The notes beneath the pieces are model-generated. The model had not been told where the DNA came from. It saw nothing but the letters and a program-made list of their open reading frames with translations, and made no database searches. This document shows positions 5,203 to 15,435 of a stretch of DNA of 20,446 bases, piece by piece. Numbering within the stretch: the stretch's first letter is position 1; each line of letters starts with the position of its first letter. The translations under genes and the position numbers were made by a program. Source of the stretch: a virus. The stretch is taken from IMG/VR virus record IMGVR_UViG_3300019761_000016, positions 1-20,446 of that record; one strand, 5' to 3'.

Positions 5203-5697
5203 ATGTTACCAATATTAGCGCCTATAGTTAGTATGTTAGCTGGTAAAGGACTTGATTTGCTTAGCAATGCCATAGAAGGTGGAGCTGACAAAGCAATTGA
5301 ACTAGTAAGTGAGAAGACTGGTATTGATCTGACAAAAGGGTCAGTAAGTAAAGAAGAAATTGCGGAGCTAAAGAAGTTCCAAAGAGAACATGAGAGTGAG
5401 TTACTGAAGTATCATGCTGAGAATACAGCTAATGCCCGAGCAATGCAAGCAGAGGCGCTGGCACAAGATGATGTGTTCAGTAAGAGGTTTGTGTACTACT
5501 TCGCTTCGTTGTGGAGTATAGCTGCAATTGTGTTCATATTCGGTATTACGTTCATCACGATACCAGAAGGCAATGAGAGATTCGCTGATACAATACTTGG
5601 GTTTCTACTAGGAACAATCGTAGCAACGATAATCAACTTCTTCTACGGGTCAAGTAAAGGTAGTCAGGACAAAGATATCCTGATTAAAGGTAAGTAG
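5203..5697 (+). CDS. Holin, 3-TM family (PF11351-like)
   Basis: A 164-residue protein matching the layout of the 'holin of 3TMs' family. It has a hydrophobic, amphipathic N-terminus (1-20), T-G-I-D-L near 39-43, an acidic helix with E-E-I-A-E-L-K-K-F and E-H-E-S-E-L (51-68), and N-A-R-A-M-Q-A-E-A-L (78-86). Two clear membrane segments follow (about 96-120 and 129-148), linked by I-P-E-G-N-x-R-x-A-D-T, and then G-F-L-L-G-T and F-F-Y-G-S-S-K-G-S-x-x-K-D at the C-terminus. It would permeabilise the inner membrane at the end of infection and release or activate the endolysin encoded downstream. AAAGGA lies ahead of the ATG. The call is among the strongest in the window. Confidence 0.88.
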   Translation: MLPILAPIVSMLAGKGLDLLSNAIEGGADKAIELVSEKTGIDLTKGSVSKEEIAELKKFQREHESELLKYHAENTANARAMQAEALAQDDVFSKRFVYYFASLWSIAAIVFIFGITFITIPEGNERFADTILGFLLGTIVATIINFFYGSSKGSQDKDILIKGK

Positions 5698-5699
5698 TT

Positions 5700-5756
5700 A
5701 TGATAAATAATTACATAGTCGTGACGTGTGTTCCAAAGGTCGTACACCAAGTATGA
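5700..5756 (+). CDS. Possible 18-codon leader ORF coupled to the PAS gene
   Basis: An ATG two bases after the holin stop opens an 18-codon frame (M-I-N-N-Y-I-V-V-T-C-V-P...). AAAGG at about 5686-5690 is well placed for initiation. Its TGA (5754-5756) overlaps the ATG of the PAS gene (5753) in an ATGA arrangement, as in translational coupling. Without this leader the PAS gene has only a weak, distant ribosome binding site (AAAGG about 14 bases upstream). It could be a coupling or attenuation leader, or simply chance. Its translation is not proven. Confidence 0.35.
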   Translation: MINNYIVVTCVPKVVHQV

Positions 5757-6424
5757 AAGTAGTAAACAAATGGATCAGTGCAGTACTAGACTTCATGGAT
5801 GTACTTGGATTAGGCAAATCAATGAGTAAAGCAGAAGACGGGTTAAAGACACTGTCTGACTGCGTTGCTTGTAAGGACATCATGCTATCAAAGTACCAAG
5901 CAGAACTACGGGAGTTAAAGCAACAACACCAAGAATCTGATAATATGTTTATGCAGGTTATCAACCATTTACCAGACATGGTGTGGGCCAAAGACGTTGA
6001 AGGTCGTTATATCATGGCAAACAACATATTCATGAAGAATTTCTGTTATGATATGTCATGGGAACAGTTACAAGGTAAGACAGATACAGAGATTGCTAAA
6101 CTATTCAAAGAAAAGGTTGGTAATGAAAACCATACATTCGGTGAGAAGTGTGCTAACTCAGACGTAATAGTAAGAGACACAGAGAAAGCCAGAAGGTTCC
6201 TGGAGTTAGGTAATATAAATGGTAAACAAATGAAGTTGGAAGTACACAAAAGCCCTGTGTACAACTTAGAAGGTACATTATATGCAATATGTGGTGTTGG
6301 TAGAGACATAACAGAGATGCATGATGAGTTAATGGATGCAATAGATGCATCAAATGCTTGTTTTGGTAAAGAAGGTAGAGAATTCTTGAAAAAGATAGCA
6401 AATAAATACGAGTTCAAGGATTAG
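5753..6424 (+). CDS. PAS-domain sensor protein in the lysis module
   Basis: A 223-residue protein with the ATG at 5753 chosen over an in-frame GTG at 5726, which has no ribosome binding site. Residues 1-60 form an N-terminal helical region with a C-V-A-C pair (37 and 40) and a Lys/Glu/Gln-rich stretch that may be coiled coil. Residues about 64-187 are a PAS domain: V-I-N-H-L-P-D-M-V-W-A-K-D at 69-81, G-R-Y-I-M-A-N-N at 84-91, G-K-T-D near 108-111, H-T-F-G-E-K-C at 127-133, G-N-I-N-G-K near 153-158, and the closing G-x-G-R-D-I-T. The H-T-F-G-E and G-N-x-x-G-K signatures resemble PAS domains of Campylobacterota sensor proteins. No kinase, GGDEF or other output domain is fused. It sits between holin and endolysin, so a role in sensing cell state or timing lysis is plausible but inferred. 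Confidence 0.75.
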   Translation: MKVVNKWISAVLDFMDVLGLGKSMSKAEDGLKTLSDCVACKDIMLSKYQAELRELKQQHQESDNMFMQVINHLPDMVWAKDVEGRYIMANNIFMKNFCYDMSWEQLQGKTDTEIAKLFKEKVGNENHTFGEKCANSDVIVRDTEKARRFLELGNINGKQMKLEVHKSPVYNLEGTLYAICGVGRDITEMHDELMDAIDASNACFGKEGREFLKKIANKYEFKD

Positions 6425-6430
6425 ATACGT

Positions 6431-6820
6431 ATGGGAATGGATGAAATGGTTGTAAGCCAAATAAACTTACGAATTGATGATGTACATAACAGACAAGATA
6501 ATGCTGATGCCTTAATTGAGAAGATACGAGAAGAAAATGCTGACTTCAATAGTAAGATAGTTGCAGCAATGAACGACCAAGCTGTTGCGTTCAGTGACAT
6601 TAAGACAAAGCAGACAATTTACGTATCAATTGCTGTATTCGTAATAACATTAGCACTAAACTTTGGTTTGGATGCAGTGAAAAGCTTCAGTGAACCGGAG
6701 AAGAAAAAGTACTACAATGAGCGAGTTGAACAATCGGATGCAGCAAAAAGACTTCAAAATGAAGTAAACATACTAACAGAAAAACTCAATGAAGTTCTGT
6801 TAGCTAAACACAAAGGATAA
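6431..6820 (+). CDS. One-TM coiled-coil protein, spanin- or antiholin-like position
   Basis: A 129-residue protein with a single clear membrane segment at about residues 62-81, flanked by helical charged regions: 10-60 (with R-I-D-D-V-H-N-R-Q-D-N) and 90-125 (heptad-like, L-Q-N-E-V-N-I-L-T-E-K-L). AAGGA around 6417-6421 favours the first of three closely spaced ATGs. The location between holin and endolysin and the C-terminal coiled coil would suit an i-spanin-like or regulatory lysis protein. Typical i-spanins, however, have the membrane anchor at the very N-terminus, and no o-spanin lipoprotein was found nearby. It might also be the membrane partner of the adjacent PAS protein. Function is uncertain. 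Confidence 0.5.
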   Translation: MGMDEMVVSQINLRIDDVHNRQDNADALIEKIREENADFNSKIVAAMNDQAVAFSDIKTKQTIYVSIAVFVITLALNFGLDAVKSFSEPEKKKYYNERVEQSDAAKRLQNEVNILTEKLNEVLLAKHKG

Positions 6821-6822
6821 GA

Positions 6823-7173
6823 ATGAAATATTTTAAAAGATTAGAGTTTGCATGTAAGTGTAATTGCGGGTTTGATACGGTTGACTACGAATTAGCAGAA
6901 GTACTAGACGATGTTAGAGAACACTTCGGTAAGCCAGTAACAATAACAAGTGGATGTAGATGTGATGCACATAATGCAAAGGTTGGTGGAGCTAAGAACT
7001 CAGTACACAAGACAGGACAAGCTGCCGACTTCAGAGTAAAAGATGTGCATGCTGATGATGTTGCTATGTACCTACACAACAAGTACCCAAATAAGTATGG
7101 GATTGGTAGATATGTTGGCAGAACACATGTCGACACTAAAAGCGGTGTACCACGAAGATGGGATAAACGGTAA
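6823..7173 (+). CDS. Endolysin, peptidase M15 family (D-Ala-D-Ala carboxypeptidase-like)
   Basis: A 116-residue protein with the compact M15_3 layout. It has F-A-C-K-C-N-C-G at the N-terminus, V-D-Y-E-L near 20-24, H-F-G-K-P-V-T-I-T-S-G-C-R-C near 34-47, and S-V-H-K-T-G-Q-A-A-D (60-69) supplying the zinc ligands His62 and Asp69. Y-G-I-G-R-Y near 92-97 is followed by T-H-V-D with His102 as third ligand and Asp104 alongside. The family cleaves peptide bonds in the peptidoglycan stem or cross-bridge. There is no signal peptide, so export would depend on the holin. The start lies two bases after the preceding stop, with AAAGGATAAG ahead of it. This is a confident call. Confidence 0.88.
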   Translation: MKYFKRLEFACKCNCGFDTVDYELAEVLDDVREHFGKPVTITSGCRCDAHNAKVGGAKNSVHKTGQAADFRVKDVHADDVAMYLHNKYPNKYGIGRYVGRTHVDTKSGVPRRWDKR

Positions 7174-7202
7174 GCTACAATTAATAAATAGTAAGCTATA
7201 AT
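7171..7202 (+). promoter_or_regulatory. Tandem 11-bp repeat with a -10-like TATAAT
   Basis: TAAGCTACAAT (7171-7181, beginning in the endolysin stop codon) recurs as TAAGCTATAAT (7192-7202) with one mismatch and a 21-bp period, two helical turns. The second copy ends in a perfect TATAAT (7197-7202), and no good -35 box is seen. Sigma-70 promoters in Campylobacterota often lack a conserved -35, so this may be a promoter or operator for the portal and head operon. Confidence 0.35.
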
Positions 7203-7220
7203 CGAGAAGATAACAAATGG

Positions 7221-9284
7221 ATGGTACAGATGGAAAGACCTAAAATAAAAGACATACTAAGCAAGTTCAAGAAGGATTACACTAATAGTAAGACGCAGCA
7301 CGACACGCAGATGAATAAGATACAAGACTACAGACGTGTGTACAATGCTGACCTGTACGGTAATGAAGAGGAAGGAAAGTCAAAGATTGTAAGTAAGGAC
7401 TCAAGACGTCAGTCGGAGTGGTTATACGCAAGCTTGATGGCGCCCTTCATGGATCAGGACATAATCAAGAGTAAACCAATAACATGGGAAGATAAGGCAA
7501 TTGCCAGACAGACTGAGTTGGTAATCAATACACAATTCACTAGACGATTCCCAAGATACAACTTCCTTCAGAAAGCAATAAAAATATACGACAGAGATGG
7601 TACGGTTGCTGTACAATGTGGCTGGGAATACAAAGGTAAGAAGATCCAGGTTGAGCAGGCTATCGTGATGGTAGATGAAACAACTGGCGAAGAGTACTTG
7701 GGCGGGATTGAAACAGTTACACAAGAAGTAACAAAAGTAAATAACCCGACAGCAGTAGTTAGACGAAATGAAGATGTGTTTATTGACCCTACATGTGAGG
7801 ATGATATGGATAGATGTCAGTTCGTCGTGGTAAGGTATAAATCAAATCTGAGTGGACTTAAACAAGATGGTAGATACAAGAACTTAGATAGAATCAAAAA
7901 GCACGCTGATGACGCTGATCCACAAAGTGATGAGGATTATGAAGAACAGGATGAGTCATCATTCAAGTTCGAGGACGACCCAAGAAAAGAGTTGCTGGTA
8001 TACGAGTACTGGGGTAACTATGATTTAGACGGTGATGGGATTGCTGAACCAATCGTATGTACTTGGGTAAATGACACAGTAATCAGACTACAAGGTAATC
8101 CATACCCAGACAAACAAATACCATTCCTATTCACATCAGCTAATAGTGTACCATTCGAAATGTACGGTGAGGCAAATGCTGCGTTAATTGCTGATAGTCA
8201 ACAAATCAAAACTGCTGTGTTCAGAGGTATGATTAACAACATGGCTCAGTCGAATAATGGGCAGATAATCACTAAGAAAGGCGCACTAGACACACGTAAC
8301 AAGAAACGTATGGAAGCTGGTAAGCACTTCGAAGTAAACACATCAATTGCTGATATACAACACGGTTCGTTCAACCAAATGCCAGGCACTGCGTTCGACA
8401 TGCTGAATGTAGCAGATAGAGACATTGAGTCTATAACTGGTGTTATGGGAATGAATGAAAAAGGACTAAGTGGTGGAATTGGTGGTAGTGCCAAAGGTGC
8501 TGGTGGAGTACTTGATTCAATCAGTACAAGAAGACTAAACACAGTAAGAAACCTCGCAGAGAACTTGATTAAGCCATTAGTTAGAAAATGGATTAGTTAC
8601 AACGCTGAGTTCATGTCACCTGAAGAAGTAACAAGAATAACAAATGAAGAGTATGTACAGCCAAGTACAGATGATGTTGGCTCGTCAATCGACATAGAGA
8701 TTGAGGTAAGCACAGTAGAAGATAACGCACTAAAAGCCGAAAAGCTTGCGTTTATGCTACAAACACTTGGACCGTCAATGGAGCCAGACTTACTAGCAGA
8801 GATGACAGCAGATTACTATGAGTTAGCAAAAATGCCAACAGAAGCTAAGAGAATGAGGGACAGAGCAGACCAACTGAGAGAACAGATGGCTAATCCAGAC
8901 CCAATGATCGAAATGATGAAGCAAGAAGAATATAGAGCAGCTAAGTTAGCAAATGACAAAATAGAAGCTGAGATAAGGCAAATGAAAGCAAGTGGTGAAG
9001 AAGATATAGCAGATAAAGCTGAAAAAAATTCAAAAGCGAAATTACTAGATGCTCAACGCTACAAGTTACTAAAAGAGGCTAAGCTACTTGACGAGAAGAT
9101 TGACAATGAAGCCCTTACCTACCTTAAAAATGACAATGGGGTTAGTCACTTAGAGGCGCTTGAGTTAGAAGATAGAAAAGCTGCGGGTAAGAAAGAGATA
9201 GAACAAATGAAAGCTAGAGTGAACTTGATTCAGATGAGATATCAAGCTCAGCAAGGTGATAAAAATATAGGAGTGGTAGAATAA
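7221..9284 (+). CDS. Portal protein (N4-like podovirus type)
   Basis: A 687-residue protein of the size expected for podovirus portals. It would form the dodecameric ring at the head vertex through which DNA is packaged and ejected. Visible features include the N-terminal helical region with S-E-W-L-Y-A-S-L-M-A-P-F near 65-76, a central segment with F-I-D-P-T-C-E-D-D-M-D-R-C-Q-F, and an acidic loop near 230-255. I-P-F-L-F-T-S-A-N-S-V-P-F-E-M-Y-G-E is typical of the portal core, and I-T-G-V-M-G-M-N-E-K-G-L leads into a Gly-rich turn. The C-terminal about 120 residues are a long charged helix rich in Met, Lys and Glu. The start at 7221 has GAGAAG upstream; a second in-frame ATG at 7230 is possible. 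It ends in a TAATG overlap with the next gene. Confidence 0.82.
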   Translation: MVQMERPKIKDILSKFKKDYTNSKTQHDTQMNKIQDYRRVYNADLYGNEEEGKSKIVSKDSRRQSEWLYASLMAPFMDQDIIKSKPITWEDKAIARQTELVINTQFTRRFPRYNFLQKAIKIYDRDGTVAVQCGWEYKGKKIQVEQAIVMVDETTGEEYLGGIETVTQEVTKVNNPTAVVRRNEDVFIDPTCEDDMDRCQFVVVRYKSNLSGLKQDGRYKNLDRIKKHADDADPQSDEDYEEQDESSFKFEDDPRKELLVYEYWGNYDLDGDGIAEPIVCTWVNDTVIRLQGNPYPDKQIPFLFTSANSVPFEMYGEANAALIADSQQIKTAVFRGMINNMAQSNNGQIITKKGALDTRNKKRMEAGKHFEVNTSIADIQHGSFNQMPGTAFDMLNVADRDIESITGVMGMNEKGLSGGIGGSAKGAGGVLDSISTRRLNTVRNLAENLIKPLVRKWISYNAEFMSPEEVTRITNEEYVQPSTDDVGSSIDIEIEVSTVEDNALKAEKLAFMLQTLGPSMEPDLLAEMTADYYELAKMPTEAKRMRDRADQLREQMANPDPMIEMMKQEEYRAAKLANDKIEAEIRQMKASGEEDIADKAEKNSKAKLLDAQRYKLLKEAKLLDEKIDNEALTYLKNDNGVSHLEALELEDRKAAGKKEIEQMKARVNLIQMRYQAQQGDKNIGVVE

Positions 9285-14342: not shown

Positions 14343-14582
14343 ATGACTGAAGAACAATTCCTAAGTCAGATAAATGAGTTCATCGAAGAACAGGATGGAC
14401 TTGAAATACTGGATATAGACGACTTGCTAATAAATAGTGAAATGGACTCGTTCTCGTACGCATTCTTCTGGGCCTACTTCGAGTCCGAGGTAGTAGAACT
14501 TGGCAATGAGTACGTTAATGGTATAGACTACGAAACATACACAATTAGAGACTTGTATAGAGAGTACCATGAACGTAGTTAA
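14343..14582 (+). CDS. Acyl carrier protein-like protein
   Basis: A 79-residue acidic, helical protein of the size of acyl carrier proteins. After helix I (residues 1-16) and an Asp-rich loop, L-L-I-N-S-E-M-D-S-F-S (28-38) matches the ACP G-x-D-S-L-type site, with Ser36 as candidate 4'-phosphopantetheine attachment residue. Helix II follows (39-52), and Y-T-I-R-D-L-Y-R-E (66-74) resembles the T-V-x-D-L start of ACP helix IV. I chose the ATG at 14343 over a GTG at 14334 because AGGTGG (14332-14337) is then properly spaced. It overlaps the ketosynthase gene by 14 bases, which supports a functional pairing. The Gly usually before the Asp is replaced by Met, so phosphopantetheinylation needs proof. 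Confidence 0.7.
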   Translation: MTEEQFLSQINEFIEEQDGLEILDIDDLLINSEMDSFSYAFFWAYFESEVVELGNEYVNGIDYETYTIRDLYREYHERS

Positions 14583-15435
14583 TTATGTTTACGTACTGCC
14601 AGACACAATAAGTGAAGATGGTAAGGCTATGTACATAGGATCAACATTAGAGAAGCGTGATAAAACGTTTATGAACACATACAATAGTCGGACATATAAA
14701 GACAAGGTAAACAGTATCAAACCAACTGGTAGAACTGCTGTGTTGTACGTAATTGGTCCAAGTGAACACCATAGTTGCTCTAGGGATTTCACAGATACAG
14801 CACCAATACCAAAAGGAGTAATGCCAGTACAAAGTCAAGCTGGGTTCATAGCAAGTAAAGTAGCTGCTCGATACGGTGCTGACTACTTGAGTATATGTGC
14901 CAATACCTGTGGGGCTAGTATGCACGCACTACAGGAAGCTGAGATGCTACTAAACAGCAATAAGTTCGATGATGTGATTGTGTATGCCGAAGACTGGACT
15001 GATCCAACACAAAGACTGCTGTTCGAGAAGATGGGGATAACACTAACTTGTAGTGATGGGTTTGCTATATTACACTTACAAAGAGGTGAACAAATCAGTA
15101 CAGTGAATTGGGTGTACCATGCAGACAAAAATCCGTTCTTCGTAAGTAAAGAAGGATATATGAAGGCTATGAAACCATTTGCCGAAGAGCAGATAAAAGC
15201 AGTGAAAACACATGGTACACAGACACCAAACAACACTGAGGCTGAGTATACTGCAATCGAAGAAATGTACGGTGATGTTGAGCTGATTGAGTACAAGAAA
15301 GAAATAGGTCACACACAAGGAGTTAGCACAGCAATAGAACTGTGTATGCTCCTGGATAGAGAAGAGCCAGGCAAGTACTTGGTAAATGCTAGTGGACTGG
15401 GGAACTTCTACGGAAGTTGTACAATAGAGGTATAA
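14569..15435 (+). CDS. Compact beta-ketoacyl-ACP synthase (thiolase fold)
   Basis: A 288-residue protein with the core of beta-ketoacyl-ACP synthases (KAS I/II). A-N-T-C-G-A-S (111-117) supplies the nucleophile Cys114; the following helix A-L-Q-E-A-E-M-L-L and the strand V-I-V-Y-A-E-D-W match the family. C-S-D-G-F-A-I-L-H-L (161-170) matches the S-D-G-A motif. T-H-G-T-Q-T-P-N-N-T-E-A-E (214-226) supplies His215. K-K-E-I-G-H-T-Q-G (243-251) supplies Lys244 and His248. N-A-S-G-L-G-N-F-Y-G-S (273-283) matches the C-terminal Gly loop. The family condenses acyl chains with malonyl-ACP. The protein is about 120 residues shorter than typical KAS; the N-terminal region and cap loops are reduced, so substrate or activity may differ. 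It lies directly behind the ACP-like gene. Confidence 0.82.
   Translation: MNVVNYVYVLPDTISEDGKAMYIGSTLEKRDKTFMNTYNSRTYKDKVNSIKPTGRTAVLYVIGPSEHHSCSRDFTDTAPIPKGVMPVQSQAGFIASKVAARYGADYLSICANTCGASMHALQEAEMLLNSNKFDDVIVYAEDWTDPTQRLLFEKMGITLTCSDGFAILHLQRGEQISTVNWVYHADKNPFFVSKEGYMKAMKPFAEEQIKAVKTHGTQTPNNTEAEYTAIEEMYGDVELIEYKKEIGHTQGVSTAIELCMLLDREEPGKYLVNASGLGNFYGSCTIEV

Follow-up and report, generated by a model that had tools for sequence, protein, structure and literature searches.

A stand-alone PAS protein and its membrane coiled-coil partner in phage lysis cassettes, a candidate two-gene sensor

What does a PAS domain without any output domain do among the lysis genes of a phage? In the usual account, lysis timing works as a clock governed by the build-up of holin and by membrane potential. 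The locus considered here lies in a 20,446-nucleotide stretch of viral DNA (IMG/VR record IMGVR_UViG_3300019761_000016, positions 1 to 20,446), called the window throughout, and its features are collected in Table 1. A sequence-only reading of this DNA had described a single PAS domain with helical flanks, a CxxC pair and no output domain, placed between holin and endolysin.

Table 1. Features of the lysis region of the window and the evidence for each
Feature	Position	Strand	Evidence or remark
Holin-like protein (phrog_1544)	5203..5697	+	phrog match; holin role inferred
Stand-alone PAS_4 protein, 223 aa	5753..6424	+	Pfam, AlphaFold2 model, alignment
PAS protein parts: amphipathic N-helix 2-17; long helix 20-71; PAS ~72-186; C-terminal helices; KYEF tail			
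CxxC codons C37-V-A-C40	5861..5872	+	conserved only within the window's phage group
Partner, 129 aa coiled coil, one TM helix (~62-80), C-terminal extension	6431..6820	+	sequence, model
M15_3 peptidase endolysin	6823..7173	+	Pfam E 8.3e-28; phrog_894 E 2.3e-40
SU10-type portal protein, basis for placing the phage	7221..9284	+	Pfam PF23899 E 1e-111

The PAS gene opens with an ATG, and an alternative GTG start at 5726 would add nine residues. Its product matches PAS_4 in Pfam at residues 71-190 (E 8.4e-9, 36.1 bits against a cut-off of 23.1) as well as the TIGR00229 PAS S-box model in NCBIfam (E 7.9e-9), and no other domain, and hence no output domain, exceeds the cut-offs of either collection. 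The AlphaFold2 model built from 15 sequences (pLDDT 87.5) predicts a PAS fold that follows the first helix and a second one of ~50 residues and is followed by helices at 187-199 and 201-216, and in a fold search this model resembles solved PAS domains. The earlier description of the protein is therefore borne out by Pfam, NCBIfam and the model. Comparison of the window gene with that of a related contig (L002) gave a dN/dS of 0.063, with dS near saturation, which indicates purifying selection and makes a chance open reading frame unlikely; together, the Pfam match, the model and this ratio rule out a chance frame or a false domain. We rejected the choice of a heme or flavin ligand from the fold, because FAD (NifL), heme (DosP, FixL, SrrB) and LOV proteins match at broadly similar scores and the matches thus do not discriminate.

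The claimed position between holin and endolysin stands, with one caveat about the holin. A holin-like gene adjoins the PAS gene and an M15 endolysin lies downstream, but phrog_1544, which the holin-like gene matches, is annotated 'unknown function', and the same product has no match in Pfam; its hydrophobic C-terminal half and its position ahead of endolysins suggest that it is a holin. For the partner, a low-confidence model (pLDDT 67.5) shows a long helix at 3-85, and the C-terminal extension of this protein is common to the window and L158. By portal protein the closest named phages are the Alteromonas phages AD45 (48% identity), and no PAS domain lies closer than 8 kb to the portal gene of AD45-P1. 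Elsewhere in the window, within the structural gene block, the frame at 14569-15435 (+) encodes a beta-ketoacyl synthase C-terminal domain (Pfam E 1.2e-6; NCBIfam fabF E 7.7e-8; phrog_35856) in a product that is short for a ketosynthase.

The window's PAS protein occurs on four IMG/VR contigs at 100, 88, 73 and 72% identity, the identical copy being on a 107,713-base contig (L001). L002 and L003 keep the window's gene order of holin-like gene, PAS gene and TM protein gene, while the endolysin varies from M15_3 in the window to a lysozyme-type protein (phrog_7) in L002 and another endolysin family (phrog_465) in L003. A survey of related phages for conserved placement, proposed with the sequence-only reading, was divided in its outcome: L002-L004 keep the PAS gene, but no PAS domain was found at 10 loci with a related holin-like gene or in two portal relatives (0/12; hmmsearch without filters, best E 1.8). 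At three of the loci with a holin-like gene (L014-L016) an endolysin-like gene, judged by eye, directly follows it. Between the window and L003 the PAS proteins are 44% identical over residues 4-66 and 95% identical over residues 143-223, so that conservation is highest in the latter half of the PAS domain and in the tail. Synonymous divergence between these two drops at 6179-6520, the PAS-partner junction, relative to both sides; recombination may therefore contribute to the conservation there, and the drop reflects either recombination or a conserved signal.

A wider family was gathered by a scan for the pattern TFGExCxN[ST]D, which gave at least 119 stretches in genomes and 18 in viral contigs, and by an alignment search, which gave 17 viral loci; with one further copy there are 18 distinct phage-type proteins. 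These are window/L001, L002, L003, L004, L158, L108 (identical to L111), L148, L161, L030, L152, the L185 copy, L162, L153, L156 (identical to L160), L159, L149, L174 and L155. Left out were L151, where no PAS was found, and L147/L171; the L147 frame at 6240-7529 encodes a 429-aa PAS-containing protein on a virus-classed contig and falls on a different tree branch. The family members, mostly from uncultured phage contigs, are ~207-240 aa long with identities down to ~30%. Note that the invariance of TFGExCxNSD is no evidence of relatedness because the search pattern fixes that motif; traits independent of the pattern are an N-terminal helix (often with W-x-x-Y-N-P-F-D), a tail ending in K-Y/F-E/K-F/Y, and a cysteine pair. 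A first genome scan confirmed no relatives, and tblastn with three family members found no match in named phages at E <= 0.01; at E <= 10 it returned 19 records, of which VP882 and phi14:2 were followed. An SU10 portal was recognized in 8 of 14 records and was not found in the six others, some of which are fragments; the family may thus extend over two or more phage groups. L030 is located in a Campylobacterales MAG. L108 and L111 carry identical PAS proteins on phage stretches in single-cell genomes of two different candidate phyla, and these stretches are probably contaminating phage DNA.

The adjacent TM protein, which had been singled out for interaction tests with the PAS protein, is a near-constant companion. 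A single-TM coiled-coil gene comes right after the PAS gene in 17 of the 18 family members (16/16 tested plus L174), with the partner beginning -14 to ~+26 nt from the PAS stop. By comparison, such a downstream product follows in only 12 of 184 (6.5%) other adjacent same-strand gene pairs from 17 loci. The partner frames encode proteins of 69-138 aa in which a coiled-coil-like stretch (the coil judged by eye) precedes a single hydrophobic span, and their sequences are too divergent for a common profile. The sole exception is the diverged second copy on the L152 contig (L185 574-1242), where the next frame is coil-like and ends before any TM. This 60,612-base contig has two different PAS genes (second locus at L185:574-4269) and two portal genes, one of them short; it may thus be a mis-join of two phages, or else a real duplication. 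In five phages a third mini-ORF (~40-64 aa) follows the pair (L148:7698-7889, L030 after 4407, L152 after 1183, L162 after 2068 and L159:4996-5169), and in four of these it ends in cysteine.

The setting of the pair is, in most cases, a lysis cassette. A peptidoglycan hydrolase is encoded within 1 kb downstream of the PAS gene in 13 of 18 loci, L004 not being among the loci scanned, and these hydrolases are of at least six types (M15_3, M15_4, phrog_465, lysozyme-type phrog_7, CHAP, GH108 and Amidase_2). The presence of different hydrolases beside a constant pair indicates that endolysins are exchanged while the pair stays. Judged by eye, spanin-like ORFs lie upstream of the L185 copy and Rz/Rz1-like ORFs are present in L159 and L174. 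L153 and L149 have only DUF5675 beside the pair, and near the L161 pair no lysis gene was recognized by eye. In L161 (8356-9006, minus strand) the pair forms an isolated two-gene unit amid opposite-strand genes, flanked by a helicase-like gene (by eye) and a NUDIX-like gene; this speaks for the pair as a unit and makes a strict dependence on lysis less likely. Among the open-licence papers listed in literature searches, none reported a PAS protein in a phage lysis cassette.

The cysteines differ from what the window alone suggested. The CxxC pair noted earlier is present at C37/C40, but it is private to the window's phage group and was rejected as a family trait; the commoner feature is a C-terminal pair. 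Two cysteines within six residues of the phage-specific tail occur in 12 of 15 aligned proteins, an enrichment over shuffled sequences (mean 1.5, maximum 7), and L174 likewise has such a pair. The window's group lacks the tail pair and has C37/C40 instead, and the L185 574-1242 copy has neither. The spacing in the tail varies from CC to CxxxxC, which makes a metal site improbable and leaves a common redox function as no more than a suggestion.

Several known systems resemble parts of this arrangement. In the bipartite energy-taxis receptor CetA/CetB of Campylobacter jejuni, CetB is a dimer on the membrane (PMC2628428), and the phage pair is similar in that a PAS-only protein is encoded next to a separate membrane partner. 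However, CetA is a two-TM chemoreceptor, whereas the phage partners have 69-138 aa and one TM helix, and no HAMP or chemoreceptor signalling domain was matched in the eight partners scanned (E 0.5). For CetB, FAD binding is predicted. VqmA of Vibrio phage VP882 is a PAS receptor that brings about lysis by way of transcription (PMC8284805). It is likewise phage-encoded, and VqmA structures are among the best fold matches of the window model (VP882 VqmA 7dwm, Z 11.1, rmsd 4.3, 141 aligned; V. cholerae VqmA 6ide, Z 12.4, rmsd 4.6, 130 aligned), with weak sequence similarity (tblastn E 2; hhalign E 3.2e-5). Unlike VqmA, a temperate-phage transcription factor that binds DNA, the window protein has no DNA-binding domain; no LuxR-type HTH after the PAS domain was matched in Pfam or NCBIfam, and only ~37 residues follow it. 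The input half of ArcB (TM, zipper, PAS) also sets a coiled coil before PAS and gives a partial NCBIfam match (E 7.7e-8) that covers the input part, but in the phages the TM lies in a separate gene, the protein has only 223 aa, and no kinase domain was matched in Pfam or NCBIfam. The cytosolic redox cysteines of ArcB reportedly form disulfides. XhlA is a small coiled-coil protein with a C-terminal TM found in phage lysis cassettes, but the one partner that matches XhlA (PF10779) does so at 14.1 bits against a cut-off of 34.7. Because a defining feature of each was looked for and not found, we do not regard the phage proteins as members of the VqmA, CetA/CetB, ArcB or XhlA systems.

A similar design, with membrane-anchored PAS proteins, occurs in unrelated phages of Bacteroidota. 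Cellulophaga phage phi14:2 and Chryseobacterium phages MA9V-1 and MA9V-2 encode stand-alone PAS_4-type proteins next to or near the endolysin. The phi14:2 (crass-like) protein has 209 aa with an N-terminal hydrophobic span, a coiled-coil-like stretch and a PAS domain that falls 0.3 bits short of the Pfam cut-off and that the phage's authors themselves called PAS. The gene overlaps that of the GH19 endolysin, and L184, a relative at 51%, is built alike. MA9V-2 encodes a 202-aa TM, coil and PAS_4 protein two genes after its GH108 endolysin, and no relatives of it were confirmed in viral contigs. Unlike the family, these proteins have TM and coil fused to PAS and lack the HTFGExC motif. Their similarity to the family is remote (hhalign E 4.6e-8 for phi14:2 and 5.3e-5 for MA9V-2), which leaves a choice between parallel design and deep kinship. 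BFVD already lists phage proteins named 'PAS domain', so a PAS protein in a phage is in itself nothing new.

These observations lead us to a tentative reading, which falls short of probable, in which the pair is a membrane-docked sensor that tunes lysis to the host energy state. The PAS protein would be the sensor half of the two-gene unit, and we infer that it dimerises through its long helix, rests on the inner membrane via its amphipathic N-terminal helix and associates with the coiled-coil/TM product of the next gene downstream. Our guess is that a redox change or a bound small molecule, acting at the PAS pocket or the cysteine pair, would alter the coiled-coil state of the partner, which would then advance or delay holin triggering in the membrane and so tie lysis to host energy state. 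CetA/CetB, the ArcB redox cysteines and VqmA of VP882 would serve as precedents by analogy. Counted against the sensor reading are the L161 locus, the presence of only DUF5675 in L153 and L149, the L185 copy, the lack of a tail pair in the window's group and the below-cut-off XhlA score.

A rather unlikely alternative is that PAS acts as a ligand-free structural adaptor that, with its partner, scaffolds or inhibits holin assembly in an antiholin-like manner. PAS domains can serve as dimerisation modules, and the constant neighbours and the conserved pair fit an adaptor too; the partners are also weakly XhlA/hemolysin-like (phrog_1193, E 0.0033 and 0.0024). However, the 95% identity of the PAS second half and tail between the window and L003 goes beyond what a scaffold needs, even though synonymous change nearby is also lower, and the enriched cysteine pairs likewise argue against an adaptor.

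The ancestry of the domain bears on a further, improbable explanation, that the captured PAS is a decoy pairing with host PAS sensors such as kinases, cyclic-di-GMP enzymes or energy-taxis proteins. Trees were built from 130 columns, a quick one with 125 PAS domains and a careful one with 90 in which every second other cellular row was left out. The 16 phage rows form one clade (support 99 in the quick tree, 100/99 in the careful tree) nearest to Campylobacterota sensors, which agrees with the kinship proposed from motifs alone and would suit a decoy; the smallest strongly supported set around it in the quick tree holds 40 Campylobacterota, 16 phage, 3 Pseudomonadota and 2 unassigned rows. The simplest reading of these trees is a single capture from a Campylobacterota-type sensor. 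The midpoint at which the careful tree was rooted fell between the phage and the cellular rows, and its bootstrap had yet to converge, so the direction of transfer is presumed. A recent host-gene passenger was rejected, since the phage proteins form one deep clade with its own ends and none of 397 Campylobacterota genomes has a phage-type protein at E <= 1e-50; the three matches in Campylobacterota genomes lie in open frames of 431-436 aa. The long branch and distinct N- and C-terminal parts of the phage clade speak against a decoy, which moreover needs neither the partner TM gene nor a place in the lysis cassette, yet both are kept. Interference with host energy taxis, raised in the sequence-only reading, is thus less favoured.

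Finally, a signalling unit unrelated to lysis (e.g. one controlling superinfection or takeover) and carried along in late gene blocks would account for the isolated L161 pair among replication-type genes, a locus that weighs against a strictly lysis-bound role, but it is improbable as well, given the hydrolase within 1 kb at most loci and the spanin-like ORFs, judged by eye, beside several.

Returning to the sensor reading, its extension to the family as a whole is possible, if doubtful. These phages would carry two-gene redox or metabolite sensors, made of a Campylobacterota-type PAS protein and a membrane coiled-coil partner in the lysis cassette, that time lysis by the host energy state, at the protein level and not through transcription, with the phages of Bacteroidota using the same design in fused form. 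If true, this would also assign a function to a small membrane protein that recurs without a known one. The pair, the holin-like gene and the endolysin adjoin within ~2 kb, and if a sensor is conserved in the cassette, the question of whether lytic phages read host physiology before lysis would become directly testable.
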